Shown: positions 13,018 to 59,923 of the stretch, in pieces
Layout of the letters: every line of letters begins with the position of its first letter
Position numbering within the stretch: position 1 is the stretch's first letter
Origin: Acidobacteriota bacterium
GTDB taxonomy: Bacteria; Acidobacteriota; Terriglobia; Acidiferrales; UBA7541
Length of the DNA stretch: 61,497 nt
Direction: 5' to 3'
Assembly: GCA_003223215.1 (NCBI GenBank)
Contig: QHYH01000165.1
Location: 1 to 61,497, forward strand
The notes under the pieces: generated by a model
The model's database searches: none
Told to the model about the DNA's origin: nothing
The model's input: only the letters and a program-made list of their open reading frames with translations
Translations under genes and position numbers: made by a program

Positions 13018-14021
13018 GCTGCCGCACCTATCTTTGCGGCGAGCAAGCGATCCAGGATGCTGAGGAAATCGGCTTCCGGACTGACCGCCATGTCAATCAC
13101 GGAAATGAATAGGGGAAGCCCCTCGAACGTCAATCCAGAAAGATTCTGGGCGTCTTTTTCCGTGGTGATAAAAGCCTTGGCGCCGTCCTTTGCTCCCGCT
13201 TTTTTTATCCGCAAAACGTCTTGCTCCGTGTAACGGTGGTGATCGCCGAAGACGGCCCGGCCGCAAATCCCGAGACCCCAGGTTTGAAGATCTTGAAAGA
13301 AAGCCTCGGGATTGCCGATACCGCAAAAAGCGAAAAACGGGCCGCCGCTGATTTCCGCCGCCGATTCGAGCGCGATTCCGCCTCCATGGCGCCGGAATCC
13401 CAATAATCGGGTTGTGGCGGCAAACACAGGAAAATGAGCAAGCTTTTCGACAGCTTCGGGGGCGCCGGGCACCACCTCCGTCCGCGTAAAGACAACAACG
13501 TTTGCACGGCTCATCGCGGAAAGAGGTTCGCGAAGACGCCCAGCCGGAAGCAAAGGTTCGCCTCGCATCGGTCGCGAGGCATCCAACAAGAGAATGTCCA
13601 AATCCCGGGCGAGCTCGAGGTGCTGAAAGCCGTCGTCGAGAAGAAAAATGTCCACCGCCCGCTCGGCTTCGAGCCGCTTGCCCTCGGCAAAGCGGTTCTT
13701 CCCTACGCCGAAGGCAACGCGATTCTGCAAACGAAATTTCATCAGTTGGACTTCGTCGCTGCTGCCCTCGGACCCGCGATAGCCGCGGCTGAGAATGGCC
13801 ACGCGCTTTCCTTGCACAAGAAATCTTTCGGCGAGCCAGATCACCATGGGCGTCTTGCCAGTGCCGCCGACGCTCAAGTTGCCAATACTGATGACCGCGG
13901 CCTTCAGCCGCTTCTGCTTGAGCCAGCCCTTCCGGTACATCCGGACACGCGCGTCGACACCGGCGCCATATAGCAAAGAAAGCGGCCAAAGAAGATCCGA
14001 GAGGAACGGCCTCGCGTTCAT
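13014..14021 (-). CDS. lpxK: Tetraacyldisaccharide 4'-kinase
   Basis: Inner-membrane-associated kinase that phosphorylates the 4' position of the lipid A precursor. The 335-residue protein has an N-terminal membrane-contacting helix, the Walker A loop SVGGTGKTP around residues 50-58, and the conserved LLDDGFQHLELARDLDI with its DGFQH signature. The end contains the family TTEKDAQNL motif. It lies between waaA and waaF with 4-nt overlaps on both sides, so lipid A phosphorylation, Kdo transfer and heptose synthesis are cotranslated from one transcript. Confidence 0.96.
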   Translation of the reverse strand: MNARPFLSDLLWPLSLLYGAGVDARVRMYRKGWLKQKRLKAAVISIGNLSVGGTGKTPMVIWLAERFLVQGKRVAILSRGYRGSEGSSDEVQLMKFRLQNRVAFGVGKNRFAEGKRLEAERAVDIFLLDDGFQHLELARDLDILLLDASRPMRGEPLLPAGRLREPLSAMSRANVVVFTRTEVVPGAPEAVEKLAHFPVFAATTRLLGFRRHGGGIALESAAEISGGPFFAFCGIGNPEAFFQDLQTWGLGICGRAVFGDHHRYTEQDVLRIKKAGAKDGAKAFITTEKDAQNLSGLTFEGLPLFISVIDMAVSPEADFLSILDRLLAAKIGAAA

Positions 14022-15391
14022 CGTGTCGCGCCATTCAGGTGGAGTGCAATTTTTGCAAACGCCCGGCCGGTGGCCCCCCGGCTGCTTTCGACAAGGCTGC
14101 GCGCCCTTTCACTCATCTCTCTCATGCGCACGGGGTTTCGAAACAACTCAATCCAGGCCACCCCGACATCCTCGGGGCTTTCGACCTGAATGGCCGCGCC
14201 GGCAGAGACGAAGCGCGAGGCGATTTCCGCAAAATTCTCCATCGACGGCCCAAAAACGGGAACCTTGCCAAACGCTGCCGGCTCCAAAATGTTATGGCCG
14301 CCCGACGGGACGAGCGAACCTCCCACAAACGCGCCGTCGGCTAGGCGATAAAGCGAAGCCAATTCCCCGATGCTGTCGAGCAGGAGCACCGTGGCGTTGT
14401 CAGGGATCGCCGGGTCTCGCGCGGGGCTGTTGGATTGCCCGTCCACTTGCGCGGGACCTGGAATCGGCAATGCGGAGCGCCGAACAAACTTGCGATGCGA
14501 TTCGTCGATGTACTCGGCGGCGGCGGCAAATTGCTCCGGCTTGCGCGGAGCAAGAACCAGGAATGCGTCGCGGTACTCGCCTTGCAGGGTTCCAAACGCG
14601 ATAAGCGCCAGCGGCTCTTCGCTCGCGACTACGCTCCCGGCAACGATAACCGGCGAACGGCCGCTACGCTTCACTTCGCCCTCCAGCCAATCCGAGAGCG
14701 GGGTAGGCAAAGGAAGCTCCGAGTCATATTTCAAATTGCCGCTTGCCGCAACCCGCTCCGCCGGCGCCCCGAGAGCGCGAATGCGCTCGGCGTCTTTCTC
14801 GGTTTGCATCAGAAAGGCACGCGCTTGAGAAAGCACATCCTTCAGAAATGGCCGCAGGAAAAAACCAAAAGCTTTAAACGACTTCCGATAGCGCGCAAAG
14901 GAACGGTCCGAGATGCGCCCGCTGACAAAAAGAACAGGGATTTTACGCTGGCCGGCCTGGCGCAGAAAATTTGGCCAGATTTCTGTTTCCAAGACGAGCA
15001 CGAGAGCAGGCCGCACGGCAGCAAAGGCGCGACGAACACAAAAACTCCAATCGAGCGGAAAATAAATCACCGCGTCGGCAAAACCCAGCCGCTGGCGGGC
15101 CAGGGCTTGCCCCGTAATCGTCGCGGTCGAAACAATGAGAGGCCGATCCGGGTAGGCCGCTTTCAACTGCCGCGCCAGGGCAATACCGGACAGCACCTCC
15201 CCAACGCTGACGGCGTGAATCCAGATCGCGCCGGCGCGCCCGGCCGGAAGCTTGGCTAAGGCAGGAAAGGACAACCCGAGACGCTCACGCAAATGGAAGA
15301 AATACTTGCCATGACGCAGGCCCCGCACGAACCAGTACGGCGTGAGCAGGAAAGCGGCCAAGCCCATGAGCAGGCTGTAAATGAAATACAC
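14018..15391 (-). CDS. waaA: 3-deoxy-D-manno-octulosonic acid transferase
   Basis: GT30 Kdo transferase that attaches Kdo from CMP-Kdo to lipid IVA. It has an N-terminal membrane anchor (IYSLLMGLAAFLLTPYW), RERLGLSFP, the WIHAVSVGEVLSGIALARQL catalytic region with its conserved Glu, STATITGQALARQRLG, and GGSLVPSGGHNILEPA in the CMP-Kdo half. I take a GTG at 15391 as start (457 residues). An in-frame reading extends to 15442 with no better signal, so the start is uncertain. It is the first gene of the LPS operon. A short hairpin (GCCTGC/GCAGGC, 15416-15432) lies just upstream. Confidence 0.93.
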   Translation of the reverse strand: MYFIYSLLMGLAAFLLTPYWFVRGLRHGKYFFHLRERLGLSFPALAKLPAGRAGAIWIHAVSVGEVLSGIALARQLKAAYPDRPLIVSTATITGQALARQRLGFADAVIYFPLDWSFCVRRAFAAVRPALVLVLETEIWPNFLRQAGQRKIPVLFVSGRISDRSFARYRKSFKAFGFFLRPFLKDVLSQARAFLMQTEKDAERIRALGAPAERVAASGNLKYDSELPLPTPLSDWLEGEVKRSGRSPVIVAGSVVASEEPLALIAFGTLQGEYRDAFLVLAPRKPEQFAAAAEYIDESHRKFVRRSALPIPGPAQVDGQSNSPARDPAIPDNATVLLLDSIGELASLYRLADGAFVGGSLVPSGGHNILEPAAFGKVPVFGPSMENFAEIASRFVSAGAAIQVESPEDVGVAWIELFRNPVRMREMSERARSLVESSRGATGRAFAKIALHLNGATR

Positions 15392-15486
15392 TATGCGTGG
15401 CTCCGGTTCATTCGTGCCTGCCCGTAGCAGGCAGGCGCACATCGCAGAGCAACCCTGCGAGTCCCCCAGGAATCGAAGGCGTCAAT

Positions 15487-30037: not shown

Positions 30038-30994
30038 TCAAGTTCGCGCCGCGGAAGCTGAGGGAAACGCCAGGGCAACTTCGCTTGCGGCGAGAATCGT
30101 ATTCACGTGAATGCGGACCGTATCTTCCACGCGACGAGCATACCCGCCCGCCAGCGTCGTCGCCACGGGAATACCCCGCCGCCGCGCTTGCTCAAACACG
30201 CTGCGATCGCGCTTTTTGAGTCCGGCCTTCGTCAGCGACAGTCCGCCAAGCTGATCCTCGCAAAAGGGATCGGCGCCGCCCACATAAAAGAGAATTTCAG
30301 GCCGGAATTCATCCATCGCCCGTTCGACTGCCGGAATTAACGCGGCCAAATACTCCTCGTCTTCCACGCGGTCGTCCATGTTCAAATCGATGTTCGAAGG
30401 CGGCTTGTGCCCGGGATAATTGTTCAGCTGATGGATGGAAAGGGTGAACACCGCCGGATCGCCACGAAAGATTGCCGCCGTTCCATTGCCATGATGCACG
30501 TCCGTGTCCACGACCATGGCTTTTTCGACGGCACCCCCCGCCTGCAGTTTGCGAATGGCCACGGCTACGTCGTGAATCGCGCAGAATCCTTCCCCGTGGT
30601 CGGGATACGCATGATGAAAACCGCCGCCGAGATTCGCAGCGAACCCGTCTCGCAGCGCCGATCGCGCCGCGAGAGTCGTCCCGCCCGCCGCCAGCCAGAC
30701 GGCTTCTACCAGTTCCTGAGAATACGGAACTTCGAGCCGCATGACGTCGCTTGCCGTGAGCTTCCCGGTCTTAAGTTTGCGCACCCACTCTTTGGTGTGA
30801 ACGCGCAAAATGTCTTCATCACTGGCAGGATCGGGTTTCAAAAAGTCTTCTTCCTTCGCGAGCCCCTCGCGAAGAAGCATCTCGTAAATCAGCCGGAATT
30901 TTTGTGAGGGAAATACGTGTTCGCCCAGGTTCAAATCGTAGCGTTCATGGTAGACAAGTTTGAACGGAAGAGAACCTTTTATCGCGGCAACCAC
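30038..30994 (-). CDS. Histone deacetylase-family (AcuC-like) amidohydrolase
   Basis: Zinc-dependent deacetylase of the arginase/deacetylase fold, 318 residues and cytoplasmic. GGGFHHAYPDHGEGFCAIHD and VVDTDVHHGNGTAAIF hold the tandem catalytic His and the zinc Asp/His. GGADPFCEDQLGGLSLTKAG near the C-terminus has the second zinc Asp and the catalytic Tyr region is replaced by LAGGYARRVED, as in bacterial class members. Bacterial relatives act on acetylated lysine (AcuC) or acetylpolyamines; the substrate is not predictable. It lies between the polyprenyl synthase and the M55 peptidase in one operon. Confidence 0.88.
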   Translation of the reverse strand: MVAAIKGSLPFKLVYHERYDLNLGEHVFPSQKFRLIYEMLLREGLAKEEDFLKPDPASDEDILRVHTKEWVRKLKTGKLTASDVMRLEVPYSQELVEAVWLAAGGTTLAARSALRDGFAANLGGGFHHAYPDHGEGFCAIHDVAVAIRKLQAGGAVEKAMVVDTDVHHGNGTAAIFRGDPAVFTLSIHQLNNYPGHKPPSNIDLNMDDRVEDEEYLAALIPAVERAMDEFRPEILFYVGGADPFCEDQLGGLSLTKAGLKKRDRSVFEQARRRGIPVATTLAGGYARRVEDTVRIHVNTILAASEVALAFPSASAART

Positions 30995-31035: not shown

Positions 31036-32019
31036 TTAATTCTCGCGTTCCAGGATGAAATCAGGGACGGTGGCCAGGGCCCTCGCGTATTCCGAGTCCC
31101 GATGTCCATTGAGGCAGGACTTGGCCCGTCGCGCGTAAACTTCTGCGAGACTGCGCGCGCGGCCAAGCGCGCCGGAATCCTGCACCAGGGACACAATCGT
31201 CTCCGGGCGCACGGAATGAAATTCTTTTTCCGCAAGCACAAGTGCCACAAGTTCGCGCGCCGCGTGGTGGCCGTTTTCCATCGCGTAAATCAGAGGCAGC
31301 GTGACTTTGCCTTCTTTCAGGTCGCTCAGCACCGGCTTGCCCAGTTGCTGGGCGGACGCCGTGAAGTCCAGCAGGTCGTCTACCAGCTGAAACGCCAGCC
31401 CGGCATTCCTGCCATACTCCGCCAGCGCCTCCTCTTCCTCTTCTTCAAGACGCCCCAGCACGGCGCCGAGCCGCGTACAGCCGCTGAACAGGCACGCCGT
31501 TTTGTACGTGGCCAGACGCAATGCGTCCTCTTCTGTCACGTCAATACGCCCGATCTTCTCAAGCTGGATCAACTCGCCTTCGACCATTTTTTGCGTCAGG
31601 TCGATGAGGATGTCGAGAATGCGGAAATTGCGCTCCTCGAGCGCCATCTGAAAAGACTGCATGTACAGCCAGTCGCCGGTCAGCACGCTGCGGTGATTGC
31701 CCCACCGGGTATTCGCTGAAGGCCGTCCCCGGCGCGTGCCCGCGCTGTCGATCACGTCATCATGAATCAGCGTGGCGCTGTGCAACAGCTCGACCACGGC
31801 GGCAAGTCGAATCGCGCTGCGGTCTTTGTGTCCCGCATAATTCGCGGAGAGCAGCAGCAGCGCTGGCCGGAGCCGTTTCCCTCCTCCACCTAGCAGGTAC
31901 GCGGCAATTTCCGAAACTGCCGGGAACGCGGTGTCGCTCTGACGCGCCAACTCGTCTTCCACCAGAGCGAGGTCGTCGCGGACGAGATCGAAAACCTCTT
32001 TCGCCGTGAGAAGTGCGAT
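31036..32019 (-). CDS. ispB: Polyprenyl diphosphate synthase (likely ATC start)
   Basis: Trans-isoprenyl diphosphate synthase that extends FPP to the C35-C50 side chain of menaquinone. It has GGGGKRLRPALLLL, the first Asp-rich motif HDDVID before RRGRPSAN, and the second VDDLLD in FQLVDDLLDF. The first ordinary start codon is GTG at 31962, with no ribosome site, and it would cut off a conserved helix (TAKEVFDLVRDDLALVE) that continues in frame upstream. A perfect AGGAGG at 32026-32031 points 6 nt further to ATC (32017-32019), and the frame is closed by the tatD stop above. I therefore extend the gene to 32019 (327 residues). Chain length is undetermined. Confidence 0.85.
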   Translation of the reverse strand: MALLTAKEVFDLVRDDLALVEDELARQSDTAFPAVSEIAAYLLGGGGKRLRPALLLLSANYAGHKDRSAIRLAAVVELLHSATLIHDDVIDSAGTRRGRPSANTRWGNHRSVLTGDWLYMQSFQMALEERNFRILDILIDLTQKMVEGELIQLEKIGRIDVTEEDALRLATYKTACLFSGCTRLGAVLGRLEEEEEEALAEYGRNAGLAFQLVDDLLDFTASAQQLGKPVLSDLKEGKVTLPLIYAMENGHHAARELVALVLAEKEFHSVRPETIVSLVQDSGALGRARSLAEVYARRAKSCLNGHRDSEYARALATVPDFILEREN

Positions 32020-32025
32020 GGCCTG

Positions 32026-32031
32026 CCTCCT
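32026..32031 (-). promoter_or_regulatory. Consensus Shine-Dalgarno before a non-canonical ATC start
   Basis: AGGAGG on the minus strand, 6 nt upstream of an in-frame ATC and 10 nt after the tatD stop. Spacing is ideal, and no ATG, GTG or TTG stands at the expected place in any frame. It decides the start of the polyprenyl synthase gene. Confidence 0.55.
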
Positions 32032-32040
32032 GGCCCCTGT

Positions 32041-32853
32041 CTACGTTAGGGAGTCCGGCCGCGACATCGGCGGCCTGGTAAGACGAAACAGTCGCCTGAA
32101 ATTCTCCGAAGTCGCGGTGGCAATTTCGTCAGTCGACAAGTTTCTCACACTCGCAAGCGTGCGCGCCACTTCTCGAACATAGGCCGGCTCGTTGCGCTTG
32201 CCGCGATACGGCTGCGGCGCCAAATACGGAGAGTCCGTCTCGATCAGAATCGTCGCGAGCGGCAAAGCCTTCGCCACGTCGCGCAGATTCTGCGCTTTCG
32301 GAAAAGTTGCATTCCCGGCAAAGGAAATCAGGAAACCCAGCTCGCTCCCGCGCCGCGCGTCTTCGAGCGTGCTGCTGAAGCAGTGCAAAATGCCGCCCAG
32401 GCCCGTTGCTTCCCAATGTTCTTCCAGCAGGTTCAGGCAATCGCTCCAAGCATCGCGGCAATGGATGATGATGGGAAGTTTTGCCTCGGCCGCCAACTCC
32501 ATTTGGTCCCGGAAGACTTTGTGCTGTGTTTCACGCGGCGAATGATCGTAAAAATAGTCCAGCCCGATCTCGCCCCAGGCGATTATCTTGGGATGCCGAG
32601 CAAGATTCCTCAGCCGCTCGAGGTGTTCCGGCTTCGCTTCCTTGGCATCGTGGGGATGAATGCCCACGGTCGCATAAATCCAATCGTATTGCTCGGTGAA
32701 GGGTAACGCCGAATCGAGTTTCTCCGGCCCGGGGCCCGTGCCAATCGCGAGAAGCGTGGTCACCTCGGCCGCGCGCGCCCGCTCAAGCATGGCCTCGCGG
32801 TCTTCCGCAAACTGCGGAAAGTCGATATGCGCATGCGAATCGATCAATTCCAT
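32041..32853 (-). CDS. tatD: TatD-family metal-dependent hydrolase (3'-5' DNase)
   Basis: Amidohydrolase-fold nuclease implicated in DNA repair and DNA fragmentation. The 270-residue protein shows DSHAHID (metal His pair), WGEIGLDYFYD (Glu), PIIIHCRDAW (His), GILHCFSS (His) and ETDSPYLAPQP (Asp), the full TatD pattern. It follows metG in the same orientation, an arrangement seen in many bacteria. metG ends 49 nt upstream of its ATG. Confidence 0.95.
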   Translation of the reverse strand: MELIDSHAHIDFPQFAEDREAMLERARAAEVTTLLAIGTGPGPEKLDSALPFTEQYDWIYATVGIHPHDAKEAKPEHLERLRNLARHPKIIAWGEIGLDYFYDHSPRETQHKVFRDQMELAAEAKLPIIIHCRDAWSDCLNLLEEHWEATGLGGILHCFSSTLEDARRGSELGFLISFAGNATFPKAQNLRDVAKALPLATILIETDSPYLAPQPYRGKRNEPAYVREVARTLASVRNLSTDEIATATSENFRRLFRLTRPPMSRPDSLT

Positions 32854-32902: not shown

Positions 32903-34891
32903 CTACTTGAGGCGGGCACCAACTTCCACGTCCTCGTCCGGGAATCCCGCGAGGACCGGCCGGCCTTCCGGGCCGACCGCCGCCGCAACAATCATGCCGT
33001 TGGACTCGACGCCGCGCAGTTTGCGCGGCGCGAGATTCACAACCACGGCAACCTTGCGGCCAACGAGTTTTTCCGGTTCGTAATATTGCGCGATGCCCGC
33101 GCAAATCTGCCGAATCTCCGTGCCGATATCTACGGTAAGTTTCAGCAGCTTATCCGCGCCGATGATGCGTTCCGCCGTTTTGATCTGCCCGACGCGCATC
33201 TCGACTTTCGCAAAATCCTCGATGCTGATTTTCTCCGGCGCGGTCCCGGGCGCCGCAGCCGCTCCCGCCTGAGCCGCACCGGCAGCAGTTTTTCCAGGCT
33301 GCGCGGCCGGTGCCGGATTCAATTCTTCATTTGCCATCGCCTCAATCCTTTCTATCGCTTCGTTTTTGTCCACGCGGGGAAACAACGATTGTTTCCCTCC
33401 CAATTGCTTTCCTGGCGCCAATTGGCCCCAGCGAAGCCCATCCAATTCGACCGCCTCAACCGAACCTGGCAGCCCGAGCAGCGACCACACTCTGGCGGTG
33501 CTCGAGGGCATCACCGGATGTGCGAGCACCGTCACGATACGCAACAGCTCCGCGGTAGTCCACAGGATCGTGGCTTTCCGCGACTGCTCTTCCGCGGAGT
33601 CCCCGAGCGCCCATGGCTGCTCCGTGGTTAGGTACTTGTCCGCCGAGCCGACCACGCCCCAAATCGTCTCGAGCGCGCGCGCAAAACTGAAATTGTCATA
33701 GTTTTCGAGCGCCTCGCCAATCGCCGTCTGCACCTCGCTCGCCAGGGCCTCGTCCTGGGGCCTGCGCTCGGTCGCTTTAGGAATTTTGCCGCTGAAGTTT
33801 TTCTCGATCAGCGCCGCTGTGCGGCTGGCGAGATTGCCGAGACCGTTGGCAAGGTCGCTGTTATAGCGCGTCACCAACGCATCATAACTGAAATTGCCAT
33901 CCTGCCCGAAGACCACTTCGCGCAACAAAAAGTACCGCAACGCGTCCATGCCCAGCATGTTGGCAATCGGCCGCGGCAAGACCACGTTGCCCTTGGACTT
34001 GCTCATCTTGGCTGCATCCATCAGGAACCAGCCGTGCGCCCACACCTGCTTTGGCACCGGCTGCATCGCCGCCATCAAAAATGCCGGCCAATAAACGGTG
34101 TGAAACCGAATGATATCTTTGCCCACCAGATGCAAGTCCGCCGGCCACATGCCGCGCTTTTCAAACTCTGGCCCGCCCACCGCGCTCAGATACGCCGTCA
34201 GCGCGTCAAACCACACATAGAACACATGCGGTTCTTCGCCGGGAACGGGAATCCCCCAGCGGATCGTCGTTCGCGTAATGCTCAGATCTTTCAGCCCGCC
34301 TTCGACGAAACTCACGATCTCATTGCGGCGCGATTCCGGCTGGATGAATTCGGGGTTCTTCTTGTAGAAATCGAGCAGTGGCTTCTCAAACGCGGAGAGC
34401 TTGAAAAAATAGTTTTCTTCCGTGACCGTCTCGGTTGGCCGGCCGCAGTCCGGGCAGTTGTCGCCTGGCTTTGCATCGTTCACGAAAGCGTTGTCGTAAA
34501 TGCAGTATTGCCCGGTGTAATGCCCTTTGTAAACGTAACCGTTCTCACGGCACAGTCGAAAAAGCCATTGGACCGTGCGCACGTGATGCAGGTCCGTGGT
34601 TCGCACAAACTCGTCCGCCGTAAGACCAAGCTCATCCCACAGCGCGCGCCACTCGGCAGCCATGTTGGCGACGAAGGCGGTTTCCGACATGCCGGCTTTC
34701 TTCGCGGCGCGCTCCACGTTCACGCCATGCTCGTCCGTGCCGGTGGTCATCACTACTTCGTAGCCGCGCATCCGCTTGTAGCGCCGGATGGTGTCCGCCA
34801 CGACGGTTGTATAGGTGTGGCCGATGTGTGGCAGGCCGTTTGTATAATAGATCGGCGTCGTCAAATAGAATTTGGGTCTTTTGGGTGACAT
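32903..34891 (-). CDS. metG: Methionine--tRNA ligase with C-terminal tRNA-binding domain
   Basis: Class I synthetase charging elongator and initiator tRNA-Met. In this 662-residue protein the HIGH motif is at 22-25 (GLPHIGHTYTT) and KMSKS at 295-299. A zinc-knuckle region contains GQYCIYD and NCPDCGRPTE. After a Pro/Ala-rich linker (about 530-555) comes the OB-fold EMAPII-like domain (VEMRVGQIKTAERI, then VVVNLAPRKLRGVESNGM) that enables dimerisation and tRNA binding. It starts 2 nt after the larC stop. Its cognate initiator tRNA is also in this window at 59847. Confidence 0.96.
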   Translation of the reverse strand: MSPKRPKFYLTTPIYYTNGLPHIGHTYTTVVADTIRRYKRMRGYEVVMTTGTDEHGVNVERAAKKAGMSETAFVANMAAEWRALWDELGLTADEFVRTTDLHHVRTVQWLFRLCRENGYVYKGHYTGQYCIYDNAFVNDAKPGDNCPDCGRPTETVTEENYFFKLSAFEKPLLDFYKKNPEFIQPESRRNEIVSFVEGGLKDLSITRTTIRWGIPVPGEEPHVFYVWFDALTAYLSAVGGPEFEKRGMWPADLHLVGKDIIRFHTVYWPAFLMAAMQPVPKQVWAHGWFLMDAAKMSKSKGNVVLPRPIANMLGMDALRYFLLREVVFGQDGNFSYDALVTRYNSDLANGLGNLASRTAALIEKNFSGKIPKATERRPQDEALASEVQTAIGEALENYDNFSFARALETIWGVVGSADKYLTTEQPWALGDSAEEQSRKATILWTTAELLRIVTVLAHPVMPSSTARVWSLLGLPGSVEAVELDGLRWGQLAPGKQLGGKQSLFPRVDKNEAIERIEAMANEELNPAPAAQPGKTAAGAAQAGAAAAPGTAPEKISIEDFAKVEMRVGQIKTAERIIGADKLLKLTVDIGTEIRQICAGIAQYYEPEKLVGRKVAVVVNLAPRKLRGVESNGMIVAAAVGPEGRPVLAGFPDEDVEVGARLK

Positions 34892-59846: not shown

Positions 59847-59923
<77 letters not shown>

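Follow-up and report, generated by a model that had tools for sequence, protein, structure and literature searches.

A probable AUC start codon, kept as ATC, ATT or ATA across twelve genera, in a polyprenyl diphosphate synthase gene of Acidobacteriota

The sequence analysed here, called the window below, is a stretch of 61,497 nucleotides forming one contig of the 8.8-Mb draft genome (279 contigs) of an Acidobacteriota bacterium. On its minus strand lie, in the order in which they are read, metG for methionyl-tRNA synthetase (32903..34891), a tatD-type DNase gene (32041..32853; Pfam PF01026), a gene for a polyprenyl diphosphate synthase of the octaprenyl, long-chain type (31036..32019; 327 codons and a stop), and a histone-deacetylase-like gene (30038..30994; PF00850). 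The metG gene, which was named by reading its sequence, has an ordinary ATG start in the list of open reading frames, and this ATG is common to its relatives. The synthase gene directly follows tatD, with which it is probably co-transcribed, and the tatD stop codon (TAG, 32043-32041) lies in the synthase frame and closes it 21 nucleotides before an ATC codon at 32019-32017. From the TAG to the two codons beyond this ATC, the strand reads ACA GGG GCC AGG AGG CAG GCC ATC GCA CTT. The seven sense codons between the TAG and the ATC include no ATG, GTG, or TTG in the window; they contain the Shine-Dalgarno sequence AGGAGG (32031-32026), which is separated from the ATC by the 6-base spacer CAGGCC (32025-32020). 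The first canonical codon downstream is the GTG that forms codon 20 (31962-31960), and this GTG has no Shine-Dalgarno match. An earlier note on this DNA had described the ATC in the same terms, with AGGAGG six nucleotides before it and the frame upstream closed by the tatD stop, and both statements agree with the sequence.

Such a motif is unremarkable by chance in 61 kb: AGGAGG-N6-ATC occurs once in the window against 0.37 expected from shuffles, and AGGAGG followed by ATC at a spacing of 4 to 8 occurs twice against 1.70 expected. The evidence that the ATC is a start codon therefore comes from a comparison with relatives and not from the motif alone.

The identity of the enzyme is clear from its match to PF00348 (E=3e-70, 236.6 bits against a gathering score of 27). 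The best solved relatives are the octaprenyl diphosphate synthase chains 3wjk and 5ze6, which we take to be E. coli IspB and of which the product is a full-length homologue (E=1e-62). This alignment begins at residue 7 counted from the ATC, which is 13 residues before the GTG. Between the two codons lies a LLTAKE(I/V)FDLVRDDL-like block that recurs in most aligned family members, so that the earlier note was right to place conserved N-terminal residues there. Since the NCBIfam equivalogs for octaprenyl and solanesyl synthases match below their cut-offs (235.5 of 412 and 228.2 of 383.2 bits), the chain length of the product is not fixed by these comparisons; a role in making the quinone side chain appears probable.

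Among 89 genomes of the family, which consists of uncultured Acidobacteria from soil, 81 have a readable start of this gene and the other 8 have only a match to a distant paralogue. One genus, g11 (16 genomes), is treated separately below; the remaining 65 genomes, which are related and do not represent 65 independent events, belong to 12 genera and encode proteins with 63-100% identity to that of the window. The codon aligned with the window's ATC is ATC in 58 of them, ATT in 6, and ATA in 1 (in one gene, L125, the start was set by a typed string and not by alignment). The earlier note had proposed a check of whether relatives have ATG at this place: ATG is found in none of the 65, and neither is GTG, TTG, or CTG. 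The single ATA, preceded by GAGG, belongs to a genus whose other three readable genomes have ATC. A Shine-Dalgarno match of at least 4 nt precedes the ATH codon (H being C, T, or A) in 64/65 genes and one of at least 5 nt in 53/65, the window gene included, with a spacing of 5-7 in 57/65; the exception at 4 nt is L017. At 807 internal isoleucine codons, the corresponding background is 11.5% for at least 4 nt and 2.4% for at least 5 nt.

The choice of codon is also unlike that inside the gene. Internal isoleucine codons of the synthase genes (n=867) are ATC in 57.6%, ATT in 40.5%, and ATA in 2.0%, which, compared with 58/65 at the start, gives a binomial P of 2.5e-8 that, as the sequences are not independent, indicates size only, like the other P values given here. 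In four-fold degenerate columns, G is present in at least two genomes in all 78 of the 78 tested and makes up 38% overall, versus 0/65 for G as the third base of the start codon. In 59/65 genes, Ala, Ser, or Thr occupies the second position, and these are the residues usual after an initiator methionine. Taken together, the comparisons strongly support the earlier note's proposal that the ATC is the start codon, with far more weight than the window alone could lend it; we regard AUC as almost certainly the true start of the window gene. They also suggest that the codon has been maintained across 12 genera against change to ATG and that evolution has largely kept AUC.

Outside these 12 genera, the picture is mixed. 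In g11, the start lies two codons upstream and is ATG in 15 genomes and GTG in 1, and the place of the former ATC is taken by TTC or TTT in 16/16. This genus is nested inside the ATH rows on the gene tree, on which the start type, labelled in 106 rows, requires five changes; three of these are forced by well-supported branches. In a sister family of the same order (f2), ATC with a Shine-Dalgarno sequence is found in 3/4 readable genes, the fourth reads ATG GCC ATC, and one of the five genomes gave no synthase match. In the one genome of a third family (f3), ATC and GTG are both candidate starts. The class outgroups have plausible canonical starts, chosen by us, in 25 of 30 loci (ATG 14, GTG 7, TTG 4), the loci left aside being L132 (ATC-like), L129 and L130 (unclear), and L150 and L151 (cut off). 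In L132, from another family of the class (f4, genome G095), the synthase seems to begin with ATC after AGGAG and has an in-frame TAG close upstream, which points either to a second origin or to a wider ancestry of such starts. For 20 phylum-level loci (L215-L234), starts were listed only; in one of them, L223 (G525), the frame opens two codons before the conserved block without a nearby canonical start, and this start is possibly odd too.

The neighbourhood of the gene is more constant than its distance from tatD. A tatD match lies upstream of the synthase in 86/86 loci of the order; the tatD stop is 12-30 nt from the synthase start, or overlaps it by 13 nt, in 60/86, and the other distances are scattered, a few of them unreliable.

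The best-known gene under the control of initiation factor IF3 is infC, which encodes this factor. In the same family, infC, read by eye and with canonical alternatives left aside, has a G-rich stretch and then ATC in 29 of the best-scoring 30 loci, the remaining locus being a divergent second IF3 gene. This second gene (L156, G032:C51), found in one genome, has by eye what looks like an ATC start after GGAGG. The infC of the window genome itself (L207) reads ATC. In a second set of 29 infC loci, mostly from the class outgroups and also read by eye, about 20 have ATC, ATT, or ATA. Within these cells, the synthase thus has a start of the type found in the gene best known for its control by IF3.

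Starts of this kind seem to be rare elsewhere in these genomes, a statement about a sample since the surveys cover a few per cent of the genes in a genome. Two or more relatives have orthologues of 37 open reading frames of the window, and of these the synthase alone clearly lacks a canonical start. Thirteen of the 37 were flagged, the synthase included, and 11 of the other 12 were inspected (13115-13403 was left out). By eye, an ordinary start lies deeper within six of these 11, and the other five (8855, 10359, 13409, 15812, and 43022) have the look of shadow frames or of extensions that are not coding. A waaA-like gene, named by reading its sequence, was considered as a second case on account of a flagged frame at 14020-15478 and was rejected: after CGGAGCCACGC comes a single variable codon (ATA in the window and in G006, TTA or TTC in others) and then GTG TAT TTC, so the start is likely the ordinary GTG of 14020-15394 on the minus strand. 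Around infC, 80 orthologue pairs from two genomes gave three flagged pairs, of which only infC holds, and nine further pairs without a shared canonical start included none that looked like an ATH start.

The best explanation of these observations, to which we give a probability of roughly 0.8, is that the synthase is translated from AUC and that its output is held down through IF3, as for infC. The ordinary formylmethionine initiator tRNA would read AUC by mismatched pairing, with the strong and well-placed Shine-Dalgarno sequence holding the 30S subunit at the codon, and ribosomes terminating on tatD may be handed to the synthase start. Since IF3 destabilises initiation at codons other than AUG, GUG, and UUG, the output of the synthase would be held down and would rise and fall with IF3 activity; by analogy with infC and sigR, sensitivity of the start to IF3 is likely. 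The earlier note's view that the ATC limits expression is plausible by comparison with infC, pcnB, sigR, and ccpN, although it may be wrong in degree, because the strong Shine-Dalgarno sequence may lift expression, offset part of the weakness of the codon, and bring expression near the ordinary level. Restraint could be useful to the cell, given the competition for isoprenoid precursors and the supply of quinone chains, and the pattern suggests that the ribosome's tolerance of a wrong start codon sets the amount of the synthase. That the regulation is adaptive rather than merely locked in has, in our estimate, slightly less than an even chance.

The strongest rival explanation is just such a lock-in, in which AUC behind a strong Shine-Dalgarno sequence yields roughly the output of AUG behind a weak one, without serving regulation: a change of ATC to ATG would overshoot, a weaker Shine-Dalgarno sequence would undershoot, and neither could change alone. 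The relatives with canonical starts speak for it. A Shine-Dalgarno match of at least 5 nt is found in 1/16 of the g11 genes and 3/25 of the canonical class outgroups versus 53/65 of the ATH genes (Fisher P 3e-8 and 1e-9, relatedness ignored), and one of at least 4 nt in 8/16 and 7/25 versus 64/65. From g11 and the class outgroups set against the ATH genes, it therefore follows that weak codons tend to be paired with strong Shine-Dalgarno sequences, and canonical codons with weak ones. This pairing agrees with the trend described by Belinky et al. (PMC5622118, in the parts of the article available), in which GUG and UUG starts have stronger Shine-Dalgarno sequences than AUG starts do. Because the Shine-Dalgarno sequence partly offsets the codon and canonical relatives more often have a weak one or none, what is conserved may be the mode of initiation or a locked compensation, and not simply a low level of expression. 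By itself, however, lock-in fails to explain why the AUH class was kept through changes among ATC, ATT, and ATA without GTG or TTG ever appearing there. A start of this kind is also found here in infC, a gene under regulation in other bacteria. We consider lock-in a serious alternative, although one with well under an even chance. Regulation through IF3 and a locked, compensated state are not distinguishable from sequence.

Another possibility is that translation starts at a downstream canonical codon, here the GTG at 31962, with the ATC an internal or untranslated triplet. This is the reading given by a list of open reading frames limited to ATG, GTG, and TTG, but the first canonical codon downstream has no conserved place (it shifts between codon 4 and codon 89), such a codon has a Shine-Dalgarno match in 5/65 genes and none in 60/65, and a start there would remove the N-terminal residues that align with solved synthases. 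A downstream start is accordingly very improbable.

It is hardly more credible that some relatives, at least, make a longer protein, whether from an upstream in-frame start or by reading through the tatD stop. This view would draw on the fact that in the window a single TAG separates tatD from the synthase in one and the same frame and that an in-frame canonical codon lies within 40 codons upstream in 18/65 genomes (only farther away in 2 more). Against it, no canonical codon occurs between the ATH and the preceding in-frame stop in 45/65, the window among them, and the frame relation to tatD varies among relatives, some of which have the 13-nt overlap in another frame. The upstream canonical codon has its own Shine-Dalgarno match in 8/65 (L020, L021, L023, L028, L070, L085, L089, and L090), and in these eight relatives the ATH start is therefore less sure. 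Three near relatives (L004, L006, and L009) have an in-frame ATG directly after the tatD stop, 7 codons before the ATC, where the window has ACA; this ATG has no Shine-Dalgarno match, and re-initiation coupled to tatD may take place at it. In genome G004, a 617-codon open frame had the appearance of a tatD-synthase fusion and was rejected as a chance frame, tatD itself being in another frame.

Nor is it likely, at a similarly low level, that a dedicated initiator tRNA with an AUC-reading anticodon makes the start an efficient one. A search of 13 genomes with the initiator stem motif GGGCTNATAACCC gave a match with a CAT anticodon in 10, each confirmed as tRNA-Met, and no match with a GAT anticodon in the 13 (three of which had no match at all, tRNAs without the exact motif being missed by such a search); the only tRNA genes found in this way were tRNA-Met genes with the CAT anticodon. 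A match with a TAT anticodon in G024 was not a tRNA according to ARAGORN. The window itself carries a tRNA-Met gene (CAT; 59847-59923, plus strand) containing the stem motif GGGCTCATAACCC, which is presumably typical of initiator tRNAs. This gene and the synthase are on the same contig in G000, G014, G015, G032, and G093. Finally, a base-calling or assembly error, with ATG read as ATC, can be dismissed, because ATC is shared by relatives (58/65 genomes) from the assemblies of several public projects.

If AUC is accepted as the start, the synthase is, as far as comparison of genomes can tell, a further gene in the small class of those with conserved non-canonical (AUH or GUC) starts. Conserved starts outside ATG, GTG, and TTG have seldom been characterised, in part because these three codons are assumed in gene prediction (PMC5472188), and a caller restricted to them could not place the N-terminus of the synthase correctly. 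AUH starts also arise very rarely, since Belinky et al. counted one switch from AUG to AUU among 61,358 ancestral AUG starts (PMC5622118, available in part). A search of the literature for non-AUG starts in Acidobacteria and for non-canonical starts of ispB or polyprenyl synthetase genes returned, in the portions of the articles available, no report of an AUH start for this gene. The present case is a metabolic enzyme gene in which such a start, ATT and ATA included, is kept across 12 genera; infC provides a natural control, and the canonical genus g11 is nested among the ATH genomes. The case hence makes it directly testable whether regulation or compensation preserves non-AUG starts. A broader idea, which we put forward as rather unlikely, is that Acidobacteriota have a small set of IF3-responsive AUC-start genes, by which the IF3 level tunes both long-chain isoprenoid synthesis and IF3 itself; if this were true, IF3, as a readout of translational capacity, would tune the synthesis of quinone side chains.

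Of the known systems, infC is the closest. It starts with ATT in E. coli and ATC in Streptomyces and is autoregulated by IF3 (PMC5472188, in the text available). Like infC, which in this family too reads ATC by eye, the synthase gene has an AUH start behind a strong Shine-Dalgarno sequence; the product of infC, however, is the very factor that discriminates, which closes a loop, whereas the synthase would be no more than a target. Myxococcus infC may also have an AUC start, for which no report was found in the literature. The pcnB gene of E. coli resembles the synthase gene in having an AUH start, in this case AUU, which is reported to hold expression down (Binns and Masters 2002); it belongs to RNA metabolism and to another lineage.

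In Streptomyces, sigR has a GTC start that is repressed by IF3, is present in 32/34 species, follows a strong ribosome-binding site (AGGAGGTG), and was misannotated; experiments show both that this start lowers output and that it depends on IF3 (PMC5472188). The synthase shares with sigR a non-canonical start kept within a clade and a strong Shine-Dalgarno sequence. It differs in that sigR has GUC, encodes a sigma factor, for which the proportion to the antisigma factor is important, and is under IF3 control by experiment, a sigR-type control for which there is no evidence outside Streptomyces (PMC5472188). In Staphylococcus aureus, the starts of ccpN (AUA, in a reporter) and cvfC1 (AUU) were found by experiment to lower output (PMC13009471, available in part). 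These genes resemble the synthase in having AUH starts with extended Shine-Dalgarno sequences that are conserved (for ccpN, also in B. subtilis); they differ in encoding a regulator and a small protein rather than an isoprenoid enzyme, and in having been mapped by ribosome profiling and measured with reporters (PMC13009471).

The nearest case by enzyme class is a polyprenyl synthetase family protein of Mycolicibacterium smegmatis, WP_011729667.1, for which N-terminal peptides from a proteogenomic study indicate a CTG start and which was annotated too short, at a downstream GTG (PMC9597629, in the parts available). As in the window, a polyprenyl synthetase gene has a start outside ATG, GTG, and TTG that is missed by the caller in favour of a downstream GTG, although the codon is CTG rather than AUH, the phylum is another, and the two are likened by enzyme class and not as orthologues. 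This precedent, as far as the available text goes, indicates that polyprenyl synthetase genes can carry starts that gene callers miss, and, together with the synthase described here, it raises the possibility that unusual starts were recruited repeatedly to bring this class of enzymes under start-codon control.
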